A stretch of 64,000 bases of DNA from Hyphomicrobiales bacterium (lineage in GTDB: Bacteria; Pseudomonadota; Alphaproteobacteria; Rhizobiales; TMED25), in contig JAQWOP010000015.1 of NCBI GenBank assembly GCA_029245795.1, forward strand, positions 1 through 64,000, in the 5' to 3' direction. The notes under the pieces were generated by a model, which ran no database searches, was not told where the DNA came from, and was given only the letters and a program-made list of their open reading frames with translations. This document shows positions 1 to 43,173 of this stretch, piece by piece (position 1 is the first letter of the stretch; the number at the start of each line of letters is the position of its first letter). The position numbers and the translations under genes are program-made.

Positions 1-812
<812 letters not shown>

Positions 813-883: not shown

Positions 884-1441
884 TTAAGTATTTTCTGCAC
901 CCCTCTTAAGAGCAGCTATTCCAGTCCTTGAAACTTCAAGTAATCCAACACTTGACATAAGATGGATAAATCTATCTATCTCTCTTGTTCTTCCCGTAAG
1001 TTGAAATATAAAACTATTCAAACTTGCATCTACAGTCTGCGCATCAAATGCCTCAGCCAGCCTAAGTGCTTCTAATCGCTTATTGCCAGAACCTTTAACT
1101 TTAATTAGAGCAAGTTCCCTCTCAAGGGCACCATATTGTCCATATTCTGCTGTTAAATCAGATACTTTATGAACGGGCACTAATCTTTCAACCTGAATCT
1201 TAATCTTTTCAATAACACTCGGTGAACCACAAGATACAAGAGTAATCCTAGATAATTGGTTTTTACTTTCGATTTCTGATACTGTCAATGAGTCAATATT
1301 AAAACCTCTTGCTGCAAATAAACCAATGACTCTAGCTAGAACCCCTGATTCATTATCTACGATAATTGATAGTGTGTGACGTTCTTTATTTTCATCAATT
1401 GACACAAAGTCATAAGTTGAAGCTGGATTTTTATCATTCAT
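884..1441 (-). CDS. ilvH: acetolactate synthase small subunit
   Basis: ACT-domain protein (RHTLSIIVDNESGVLARVIGLFAARGFNIDSLTVS) between ilvB and ilvC. Confidence 0.96.
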   Translation of the reverse strand: MNDKNPASTYDFVSIDENKERHTLSIIVDNESGVLARVIGLFAARGFNIDSLTVSEIESKNQLSRITLVSCGSPSVIEKIKIQVERLVPVHKVSDLTAEYGQYGALERELALIKVKGSGNKRLEALRLAEAFDAQTVDASLNSFIFQLTGRTREIDRFIHLMSSVGLLEVSRTGIAALKRGAENT

Positions 1442-1473: not shown

Positions 1474-3237
1474 TTAGACCATAATCTTTCCACTATCATC
1501 TATCGCGGTAGAAACTTGTTCGTCGGTTACATCATCGCCAAGTAGCATATCATTATGAGCTTTACCTGATGGAATCATTGGAAAACAATTCTCTAAACTT
1601 GCAACTTGACAATCCATTATTACTGGACCTGGCGTTTCAATCATTTTGATAATCGCTTGATCTAAATCTTTTGGTTTCTTAGCAGATATACCTGTTGCTC
1701 CATATGCTTCAGCAAGTTTTACAAAATCAGGAAGTGAATCCGAATAACTTTCTGATATTCTATTACCATGAAGAAGCTGCTGCCATTGCCTCACCATGCC
1801 CATATAACTATTATTTAAGATAAAAATTTTCGTGTTAAGTCTATACTGAACAGCAGTAGATAATTCTTGGATATTCATTAATATTGATGCATCTCCTGCT
1901 ATATCTATGACAAGAGATTCAGGAAAAGCTACTTGAACTCCATTTGCAGCTGGAAAACCATAACCCATTGTGCCAAGACCACCAGAAGTCAACCATCTAT
2001 TTGGTTTTTCAAATTTATAAAATTGTGCAGCCCACATTTGATGCTGTCCGACTTCCGTTGTTATATAAGTATCCTTATTTTTGGTTAATTCATATAATCT
2101 TTGAATTGCATATTGTGGCATTATGACGTCAGAATTTGCCTTATATTTAAGACAATCAACTTTTTTCCATTTTTCAATTTCTTGCCACCAATTGTCATAC
2201 GCTGGGAATGAATTAATCTTTTTCTCTCTAATAACATTTAGAGCTTCATTCAAGAATTTTCCACAATCAGCTAATATCGCTAAGTCAACATCAACATTTT
2301 TATTGATAGAAGTTGCATCTATATCTATATGTATTTTCTTTGATTTTGGAGAAAATTCATCAATCTTTCCAGTAATTCTATCATCAAAACGAGCTCCAAT
2401 ACATATCATTAGATCACAATCATGCATAGCCATATTAGCCTCATAGGTACCATGCATGCCAAGCATACCAAGCCAGTTCTTTCCTGAGCCAGGATATGCT
2501 CCTAACCCCATCAAAGTAGATGTAATTGGAATATTTGTTTTTTGAATAAATTTGTTAAGCAATTTTGATGTATTTGGTCCAGAGTTTATTATTCCTCCAC
2601 CGGAATAAATAATTGGTTTTTTTGATCTCTGTATTAGCTCAATAACTTTTGAGACAGCACTTTTATCAATTGAAGATGGAGGATTGTATGTTTTGTGTTT
2701 AATCTTTATTAGATTTTCATACTCACCTTCTGCAAATTGTATATCTTTTGGAATATCAATTAAAACAGGTCCAGGTCTTCCAGAACGAGCAACATAAAAT
2801 GCCTCATGCATAATTCTAGGTAAATCTTTTATATCTTTTACTAGCCAATTATGTTTCGTACAGGCCCTTGTAATCCCAACTGTATCGGCTTCTTGAAATG
2901 CATCACTACCAATTAAATGAGTAGGAACTTGACCACTGATACAAACTATTGGTATTGAGTCAAGAAGTGCGTCGGTTAAACCAGTTACAGCATTAGTGGC
3001 TCCAGGACCAGAAGTTACAATAAGCACTCCAACTTTACCAGTAGATCGGGCATATCCTTCCGCTGCATGAGCAGCCCCTTGCTCGTGTCTAACAAGAATG
3101 TGCTTTACTTTATCTTGCTGAAAAATTGCATCATATATAGGCAGTACAGCACCTCCAGGGTAGCCAAAAATAGAATCCACACCCTGATCTTCAATTGCTT
3201 GAATAACAATTTCTGCTCCTGTTTTTTTTATTCCCAT
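1474..3237 (-). CDS. ilvB: acetolactate synthase large subunit
   Basis: ThDP enzyme with GYPGGAVLPIYDAI, VRHEQGAAHAAEGYAR, GDASILMNIQELSTAVQY. Confidence 0.96.
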   Translation of the reverse strand: MGIKKTGAEIVIQAIEDQGVDSIFGYPGGAVLPIYDAIFQQDKVKHILVRHEQGAAHAAEGYARSTGKVGVLIVTSGPGATNAVTGLTDALLDSIPIVCISGQVPTHLIGSDAFQEADTVGITRACTKHNWLVKDIKDLPRIMHEAFYVARSGRPGPVLIDIPKDIQFAEGEYENLIKIKHKTYNPPSSIDKSAVSKVIELIQRSKKPIIYSGGGIINSGPNTSKLLNKFIQKTNIPITSTLMGLGAYPGSGKNWLGMLGMHGTYEANMAMHDCDLMICIGARFDDRITGKIDEFSPKSKKIHIDIDATSINKNVDVDLAILADCGKFLNEALNVIREKKINSFPAYDNWWQEIEKWKKVDCLKYKANSDVIMPQYAIQRLYELTKNKDTYITTEVGQHQMWAAQFYKFEKPNRWLTSGGLGTMGYGFPAANGVQVAFPESLVIDIAGDASILMNIQELSTAVQYRLNTKIFILNNSYMGMVRQWQQLLHGNRISESYSDSLPDFVKLAEAYGATGISAKKPKDLDQAIIKMIETPGPVIMDCQVASLENCFPMIPSGKAHNDMLLGDDVTDEQVSTAIDDSGKIMV

Positions 3238-3302
3238 AAGTTTATTGCCTTATTTGTATTTCTTCAATTATCGAATAGAATGGTTTAAATAAAATTAAAA
3301 AA

Positions 3303-3318
3303 AGGGGCGTATGCCCCT
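3303..3318 (-). terminator. intrinsic terminator of ilvB leader (attenuator)
   Basis: On the minus strand: AGGGGC-ATAC-GCCCCT followed by a T tract, between the leader ORF and ilvB. Confidence 0.8.
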
Positions 3319-3324
3319 GTAAAA

Positions 3325-3363
3325 GTATCACCATCATGAGAACCGTAAGGTCTCAGGTGATAC
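3325..3363 (-). promoter_or_regulatory. leader hairpin upstream of the ilvB attenuator terminator
   Basis: Perfect 8-bp arms GTATCACC/GGTGATAC; 5' arm overlaps the last codons of the leader ORF. Confidence 0.7.
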
Positions 3364-3412
3364 AAAAGACGACTAGCAGAGTTTTATTTAAATAAATCAT
3401 TATATCTTTCAT
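3353..3412 (-). CDS. putative ilvB leader peptide MKDIMIYLNKTLLVVFCIT
   Basis: 19-codon ORF, ATG at 3412, TGA at 3353-3355, consecutive Leu-Leu-Val-Val and later Ile, followed by hairpin and terminator before ilvB. Confidence 0.7.
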   Translation of the reverse strand: MKDIMIYLNKTLLVVFCIT

Positions 3413-3468
3413 TTTATAAACATTAATAATATATTTCATAAAATAAAATTAATCAATTTTTTTCTAGA

Positions 3469-4371
3469 CTAACTTAAAAAAAAATCCTCCTTATTTTTAA
3501 TCCACTCCCAATCATTCATTTTCTTTTTTGCCCATGTTATTTGTCTTTTTGCATATCTTTTTGTTTGAATATTCATATGCTCCTTTAGTTTTTCTAAACT
3601 ATGTTTTCCATCAATATATTCAATGACTTCTCTCACTCCAATTGCTTTCATTAATGGATAGGACAATGAAATATCCTTTCCTTCTATTCTTTTTATTTCA
3701 TCAAAAAGCAGTTGGTTATTAACCATCTGGTCAATACGTTCAGATATATTACTTTGAATAGTCTCTTTGCTTGGGCAAAGATAAACCTTCTTTACTTGAT
3801 CTTTTTTTATTAGAATATTACCTGTGTTCTTTTGCCAATCCCTTATGGATATACCTGTTTGATCAAAAACCTCTGTTGCCCTAATTACTCTAGTTGGATC
3901 ATTCATATTAATTGAATTTGCTGCCAATGGATCATTTCTTTGGAGAAATGTATATATATATTTTAATCCATTATTATCTTTTATTTGCTGCCATTTAATT
4001 CTTGTTTTTTGAGTAATTTGAGGTATCTCTGATATTTCTCCAAATAAACCAGAAAAATATAAACCTGTTCCACCAACAATTATTGGCAAGATCTTCATTT
4101 TTTCTAGAAAAATTAATAAACTTTCAATATTCTTTAACCAATCACCAACAGAAAACCTTATCCCTGGGTCAATATACCCATATAAAAAGTGGGGAGTACT
4201 TGACATTTGCGTAATTGACGGCCTAGCAGTAATGATTGAAAGGTCTTTGTATACCTGCATTGAGTCGGCGTTGATAATTGCCCCATTATATTTTTTTGCG
4301 ATATCTAAAGCTAGATGTGATTTGCCAGAAGCAGTTGGACCTGAAATAAGAATTGCGTTATAATTAAACAT
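3469..4371 (-). CDS. miaA: tRNA dimethylallyltransferase
   Basis: ISGPTASGKSHLALDIAKKYNGAIINADSMQVY, IIVGGTGLYFSGL. Confidence 0.95.
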   Translation of the reverse strand: MFNYNAILISGPTASGKSHLALDIAKKYNGAIINADSMQVYKDLSIITARPSITQMSSTPHFLYGYIDPGIRFSVGDWLKNIESLLIFLEKMKILPIIVGGTGLYFSGLFGEISEIPQITQKTRIKWQQIKDNNGLKYIYTFLQRNDPLAANSINMNDPTRVIRATEVFDQTGISIRDWQKNTGNILIKKDQVKKVYLCPSKETIQSNISERIDQMVNNQLLFDEIKRIEGKDISLSYPLMKAIGVREVIEYIDGKHSLEKLKEHMNIQTKRYAKRQITWAKKKMNDWEWIKNKEDFFLS

Positions 4372-10382: not shown

Positions 10383-10489
10383 TTATAAATTATGCCTGAT
10401 TTATTCATTATTGCGAAGTATGAAATAAATTTATAATCCACTTTCTTTGTTTTTATTTTAATATTAAGATAAAAGGGCTGTTTCAGCTA

Positions 10490-10768
10490 TGGTAATAAAT
10501 AGGCGTCATAATAAACTTATCGGACCCGGGGGCAGTACCCGGCGCCTCCACCAATAAATTTTATGGGGGCGAAATAGGATCGACGAGAGTGTAAAAGACC
10601 TCCTTTTACTCGGTATAGTACCACCGTTATCGGGCTAATTTTATAGTTGCAAACGACAACTATGCTCCGGTCGCAGTAGCTGCATAGCAGCTTGAGCACC
10701 GAAACTTAAGTCCTTGACTCTAGCAAGCCAAGGCGGGGTTTGGGGGCACCTGGCAACAGAACGCCCCT
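10490..10768 (+). ncRNA. ssrA: tmRNA, circularly permuted two-piece form (5' boundary approximate)
   Basis: Acceptor piece with CCGGG-GGCAGTA-CCCGG T-arm and CGCCTCC-ACCA ending 10553; 11-nt spacer; coding piece GGGGGCGAAATAGGATCGACG from 10565 pairs with CGCCTCC; tag reading frame GCA..TAG 10649-10687 = ANDNYAPVAVAA*. Confidence 0.95.
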
Positions 10769-10836
10769 GTGAAAATACTTAAATTTTTTAACCTACGAAT
10801 AAATGGTATTTAATAAACTTAACTGAAAGGAAAATT

Positions 10837-42803: not shown

Positions 42804-42832
42804 TTTTTTAATACTTTATTAACCAAATAATA

Positions 42833-43173
42833 ATGCTAGATGGCCTATAAGCCGGGTTCTGTGTTAATATGATCATTCATCTAGGTCACAAGTTGCCTTA
42901 TGACTCAAGCGACCTACCCAGATGGTATAAAGCGAAGGACTTCACCACCTCTATTTGGTCTTGCTCCCAGTGGGGTTTACAATGCCATTAATGTTACCAC
43001 TAATGCGGTGCGCTCTTACCGCACCTTTTCACCCTTACCATAATATTTCAATGGCGGTACACTTTCTGTTGCACTTTCCCTAAAGTTTCCTTCGCCGGAT
43101 GTTATCCGGCACTGTTCCTCCGTGGAGCCCGGACTTTCCTCTATTTGCATAGCGATCATCCAGCCATCTAGCA
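42833..43173 (-). ncRNA. rnpB: RNase P RNA (bacterial class A)
   Basis: Minus strand GAGGAAAGTCCGGGCTCCACGGAGGAACAGTGCCGGATAAC...GGGTAGGTCGCTTGAG...AACCCGGCTTATAGGCCATCTAGC; complementary ends. Confidence 0.96.

Follow-up and report, generated by a model that had tools for sequence, protein, structure and literature searches.

A probable ribosome-mediated attenuator upstream of ilvB-ilvH-ilvC in an AT-rich Hyphomicrobiales genome, and the question of its antitermination step

According to the literature, leader-peptide control upstream of branched-chain amino acid genes is known from several bacteria. An ilvB leader peptide of alphaproteobacteria is credited to Vitreschak et al. 2004, as cited in PMC1273637, and the same work is cited in PMC2573895 for an entry 'ilvIH cis regulatory' in S. 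meliloti. Attenuation of ilvBN in Caulobacter crescentus is credited to Tarleton et al. 1994, as cited in PMC4117421. In Corynebacterium glutamicum, the attenuator of ilvBNC has Leu/Val control codons, a short leader and three hairpins upstream of ilvB (PMC11857589).

The window analyzed here is a stretch of 64,000 nucleotides from an AT-rich, 1.36-Mb Hyphomicrobiales genome. On its minus strand, a promoter-like element is followed between miaA and ilvB by a short ORF, then by a hairpin, termed P1, and finally by an intrinsic terminator (Table 1). We consider it very likely that together they form an attenuator by which translating ribosomes control transcription of the ilvB-ilvH-ilvC operon. 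Such an element had been proposed in a sequence-only reading of the same DNA, and direct reading reproduced the sequences and coordinates given there, except for the start codon of the ORF and the spacer between P1 and the terminator. With respect to the putative promoter, the combination TTGATT-16/17-TATATT is present at the same place in leaders of the same genus, and a promoter consensus scan of the window, taken whole, was not above shuffles.

Table 1. Coordinates of the leader, its neighboring genes, other RNA genes of the window and the coinciding RF02502 matches (window positions unless a locus is named)
Feature	Position	Strand	Basis or remark
miaA (IPP transferase)	stop at 3469	-	same direction, directly 5' of leader
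Putative leader promoter TTGATT, 17 nt, TATATT	3428..3456 (TTGATT 3456-3451; TATATT 3433-3428)	-	consensus scan 9/12
Longer ORF form ATGAAAGATATAATGATT...ATCACCTGA	3412-3353	-	read directly
Leader ORF, conserved form MIYLNKTLLVVFCIT and stop	3353..3400	-	start conserved in genus
Control codons CTG CTA GTC GTC (Leu Leu Val Val)	3368..3379	-	L-[LI]-V-V in genus
P1 arm 1 GTATCACC, last codons of leader ORF	3356..3363	-	pairs with 3332-3325
Leader stop codon TGA	3355-3353	-	inside inner hairpin
Inner hairpin TGAGACC-TTAC-GGTTCTCA	3337..3355	-	enclosed by P1; covaries in family
P1 arm 2 GGTGATAC	3325..3332	-	direct reading, fold, covariation
Intrinsic terminator AGGGGC-ATAC-GCCCCT	3318-3303, T run to 3297	-	terminator scan
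ilvB, acetohydroxyacid synthase (AHAS) large subunit; predicted controlled gene	1474..3237	-	TPP enzyme domains
ilvH, AHAS small subunit	884..1441	-	domain assignment
ilvC (ketol-acid reductoisomerase), off window edge	1..797	-	named from translation alone
Alphaproteobacterial (permuted) tmRNA gene	10438-10770	+	
RNase P RNA	42832-43171	-	
RF02502 coinciding with ilvB leader	L037 1304-1426; L042 1292-1409; L070 1295-1414; L034 1317-1437; L035 1254-1374; L049 1305-1427		

The leader ORF of the sequence-only reading is present as given, but its start belongs four codons further downstream. The ATG at 3412 is confined to this genome; at the corresponding site, the relatives L002 and L003 lack an ATG and carry an in-frame stop. 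Because the upstream in-frame stretch of these two relatives hits a stop before any ATG is reached, the second ATG (3400-3398), which is conserved, was taken as the start. Throughout the genus the leader peptide corresponds to MIYLN-x-x-LLVV-x-C-I-T or is close to that, and the Tyr, Leu and Asn codons vary synonymously in the genus leaders, while the residues are kept. Conservation of the Leu/Val run and of its frame in close relatives, on which the attenuation reading had been staked, was confirmed: L-L/I-V-V is found in 11 same-genus leaders, and L-V-V-V in 2 leaders of a sister genus, where the run is likewise in frame, just 5' of arm 1 and directly upstream of ilvB. Among the long ORFs of the window, CTG accounts for 3.3% of the Leu codons, GTC for 8.9% of the Val codons, and ATC, which the leader also uses, for 9.3% of the Ile codons. 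Control codons that are rare and slowly read are consistent with an attenuator, short of being proof of one.

Both arms of the 8-bp hairpin formed by the last codons of the ORF were recovered by direct reading. The spacer between this hairpin and the terminator is 6 nt long (TTTTAC), not 5 nt as previously given, and a second hairpin lying within P1 (3355-3337) had been overlooked. The terminator with its T run was found again by a terminator scan, which returned two overlapping sites against 0.5 expected. RNA folding, one of the checks suggested earlier, gave -32.5 kcal/mol for positions 3295-3412, compared with -19.0 +/- 3.3 kcal/mol for shuffles (z -4.1), so that the leader region folds better than shuffled sequence.

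For a comparison within the family, 13 leaders were aligned, 11 from the same genus and 2 from the sister genus. The layout of leader ORF, P1 and terminator is kept in 13/13 of them, the terminator itself being conserved in every one. GU changes aside, P1 arm 1 is invariant in the family; it covaries class-wide. The sequence of the inner hairpin is free to vary in the family alignment except for its pairing, with compensatory changes in 4 pairs, two of these in other inner-stem pairs. A covariance model (R2) found exactly one match per genome in 14/14 family genomes, located at ilvB in all thirteen that have the ilvB start on the same contig, the family scores being favored by a training set that included part of the family. 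Order-wide matches in families outside the training set also precede ilvB.

Across the order, the covariance model gave 27 matches in 26 of the 41 genomes sampled, and all of them lie directly upstream of ilvB. One of the 27 belongs to a Rhizobium genome that has two copies of ilvB (G035:C1049:7949-8069, L207); it is located at the second of these, which is 60% identical and accompanied by its own copy of the leader. A strict detector demanding the leader ORF, P1 and the terminator together was applied to the regions upstream of ilvB in relatives of the window and in 80 named loci, mainly from rhizobia and their kin. It was passed by 82 of these 111 regions and by 13/13 family leaders, compared with none of 900 first-order-Markov randomised sequences. 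Two of 69 other class members with ilvB, one of these from the same order, passed the detector, which is blind to leaders of different design; these other class members were judged by a direct look upstream of ilvB. The covariation check for P1 proved positive in the class alignment, where compensatory changes are present: 47 cells with both sides changed were counted against 14.5 in shuffled alignments, a count that leans towards P1 since the class-wide structure was set by hand from paired columns, and the P1 columns are 80% paired as against 20-54% when slid. Despite the hand-set structure, the slid controls and the shuffles fall short of the P1 count. RNAalifold on the class-wide MAFFT alignment returned no structure. 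Measured over 84 leaders, the median distance from the last Ile/Leu/Val codon to the start of arm 1 is 4 nt (IQR 4-5); P1 comprises 9 bp (8-10), and the spacer between P1 and the terminator is 6 nt (4-7).

The view that the element performs branched-chain amino acid attenuation is supported by the conserved Leu/Val run, its frame, its place upstream of ilvB and the prior literature, from which we infer a response to these amino acids. In the proposed mechanism, the promoter just 5' would give rise to a leader RNA of ~125 nt, and a ribosome would translate the 15-codon leader peptide with its Leu-Leu-Val-Val codons. If there were no translation, P1 would form, the terminator would be free, and transcription would end before ilvB. 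If translation were complete, the ribosome at the stop codon would cover the 5' strand of the inner hairpin, and the terminator would again fold. Under shortage of charged Val- or Leu-tRNA, stalling would be expected at GUC-GUC, with the footprint of the ribosome extending into arm 1, so that P1 would be opened, the inner 5' strand set free and readthrough favored. With the last Val codon in its A site, the ribosome would cover about 9-11 nt further; therefore, most of P1 would be removed in the window. Readthrough in the genus may come from pairing of the inner 5' strand with the terminator arm AGGGGC; the strand reads CCUU here and GUCCCU in a relative, and the pairing is weak in the window.

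It had been noted by eye that no strong antiterminator is visible in this leader, and a systematic complementarity test both agreed and extended the observation to the whole family. The result bears on a variant of the attenuation mechanism, compatible with it rather than exclusive of it, according to which stalling opens P1 and acts, for example, through altered RNA-polymerase pausing or a very short overlap, with no helix of the 2:3 type and no antiterminator involving a terminator arm. We regard this variant as a real possibility, though not the one that we would favor. When the terminator arms were compared with the upstream RNA in the 84 alphaproteobacterial leaders, neither arm was more complementary than expected by chance (shuffles). 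For arm 3, the mean z was -0.1 in the family and 0.0 in the 71 other leaders, compared with -2.8 in E. coli, where four of the five leaders examined pass the test; the window leader itself has z +0.5 and an inner-stem permutation rank of 1.00. The leader ORF region likewise showed no sign of pairing with one or the other terminator arm, arm 3 being even less complementary than shuffled sequence. As neither arm exceeds chance family-wide, the missing antiterminator was no oversight of the earlier reading. The variant also agrees with the nearly fixed position of P1, 6 nt before the terminator, and with C. glutamicum ilvBNC, in which antiterminator and terminator reportedly share a boundary trinucleotide only (PMC11857589). 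Against it, the complementarity test has false negatives, hisL of E. coli being missed at z -0.7, and it could not score E. coli ilvL and ivbL, whose terminators are without a perfect stem under the rule used; in addition, the leader sequences tested are not independent of one another. Moreover, in the same-genus relatives L007, L008, L010 and L112, the 5' strand of the inner hairpin and the terminator arm are predicted to form an antiterminator about 4-8 kcal/mol better than the alternative fold. For the window leader, both folds come out equal (-8.2 vs -8.2 kcal/mol), and random re-ordering of the inner-stem base pairs produced equal or better antiterminators for most leaders, the window's included.

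Two candidate pairings were rejected. An antiterminator with arm 3 as a selected feature was supported neither by folds from which the ribosome-covered part had been removed, nor by the flipped-arm, shuffled-arm and inner-stem permutation controls, nor by a swapped-arm control applied to the family and the other alphaproteobacterial leaders. In the flipped-arm control, 58 of 71 leaders hinted at capture of arm 4; measured against shuffles of that arm, however, z is 0.0, and the signal is therefore a composition effect. In Bradyrhizobium (L067, L105), P1 is predicted to extend into the terminator arm by a few G-C pairs (CCC with GGG), and a direct exclusion between P1 and the terminator, not seen in other groups, is possible there on the basis of the modeled structure. 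As for the more general proposal, that no conventional antiterminator takes part in the switching of alphaproteobacterial ilvB leaders and that a ribosome on stalling opens a hairpin kept ~6 nt from the terminator, with no helix capturing an arm, we consider it rather unlikely.

Attenuation in cis may also be set against the idea that the terminated leader works additionally or mainly as a trans-acting small RNA or by way of a functional peptide, which appears improbable. Rfam lists the counterpart in rhizobia (Atu_C8, RF02502) among sRNA genes rather than cis-regulatory leaders, and the trp leader RNA and peptide of S. meliloti have been reported to be active in trans (PMC7298713, PMC10117765). 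On the other hand, every match in the order sample is directly upstream of ilvB, as befits a cis element, and the inner hairpin varies freely except for its pairing. The model RF02502 coincides exactly with the ilvB leader in loci of Agrobacterium, Rhizobium, Sinorhizobium, Ochrobactrum and Mesorhizobium, and a match at the ilvB leader was obtained for most of the rhizobial loci tried; the Atu_C8 'sRNA' is probably the terminated ilvB leader. The leader of the window gave no match to RF02502 (gathering threshold 50 bits) even at E-values up to 10, because it is too diverged, and genome G000 had no RF02502 match either. Comparison of the window leader with riboswitch and other Rfam cis-regulator families yielded sub-threshold matches only. 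The remaining explanation is very improbable; in it, the terminator would merely end the miaA transcript, the ORF would be incidental, and ilvB would be transcribed from a promoter of its own within the 65 nt that follow the terminator. In its favor, miaA is the next gene upstream on the same strand, and the terminator is of the ordinary intrinsic type. Against it, the ORF, Leu/Val codons, P1 and terminator form a single unit order-wide, with fixed spacing and covariation, the unit also occurs at L011 and L012, where the end of the upstream gene is unlike miaA, and the promoter-like TTGATT-17-TATATT is found 5' of the leader.

Leaders of the same type were also seen directly before MFS transporter genes instead of ilvB, one in Mesorhizobium caraganae (L205 1500-1610), the other in a genome from a different order (L126 1485-1595). 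Their leader peptides, MNITMVFVVVGERMGGTV and MMQVSVVVGRRMGKAA, respectively, are Val-rich, and the transporters are 50% identical. Judging by sequence, these leaders may be branched-chain amino acid attenuators controlling a transporter, and the presence of leader copies before transporter genes suggests a small regulon.

The attenuation reading implies that an AT-rich, small-genome relative of the rhizobia keeps apparently amino-acid-responsive control of its branched-chain amino acid operon. The tie between the Rfam 'sRNA' Atu_C8 and the ilvB attenuator bears on how sRNA catalogues of Agrobacterium and rhizobia are to be read. It is also asked how such leaders antiterminate when the expected pairing is undetectable in 84 of them.

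Among the described systems, the alphaproteobacterial ilvB/ilvI attenuator resembles the window's element in that an ORF with successive Ile/Leu/Val codons, the P1 hairpin and an intrinsic terminator lie directly before ilvB. The two differ in P1, which is GTATCACC/GGTGATAC in the window and GCGC-rich in other alphaproteobacterial ilvB leaders, and in the stop codon, which follows right after arm 1 (3 nt) in the window and lies a median of 13 nt further in other leaders. The leader of Caulobacter crescentus ilvBN likewise precedes an AHAS operon; as described in PMC4117421, it has tandem Ile and Val codons, and stalling blocks the terminator. The ilvBNC attenuator of C. glutamicum belongs to a different phylum, has another layout and is supported by mutations, whereas the mechanism proposed for the window is inferred. 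The trp, leu, thr and phe attenuators of E. coli share control codons, hairpin, terminator and logic with the ilvB leader, but the 5' terminator arm is strongly complementary to upstream RNA in these systems (z -2.2 to -3.7) and not in the alphaproteobacterial family. The unusual part of the window leader is thus its antitermination step, which is without detectable pairing above chance; in its other parts, the leader is an AT-rich, previously undescribed example of the known alphaproteobacterial ilvB/ilvI leader-peptide attenuator.
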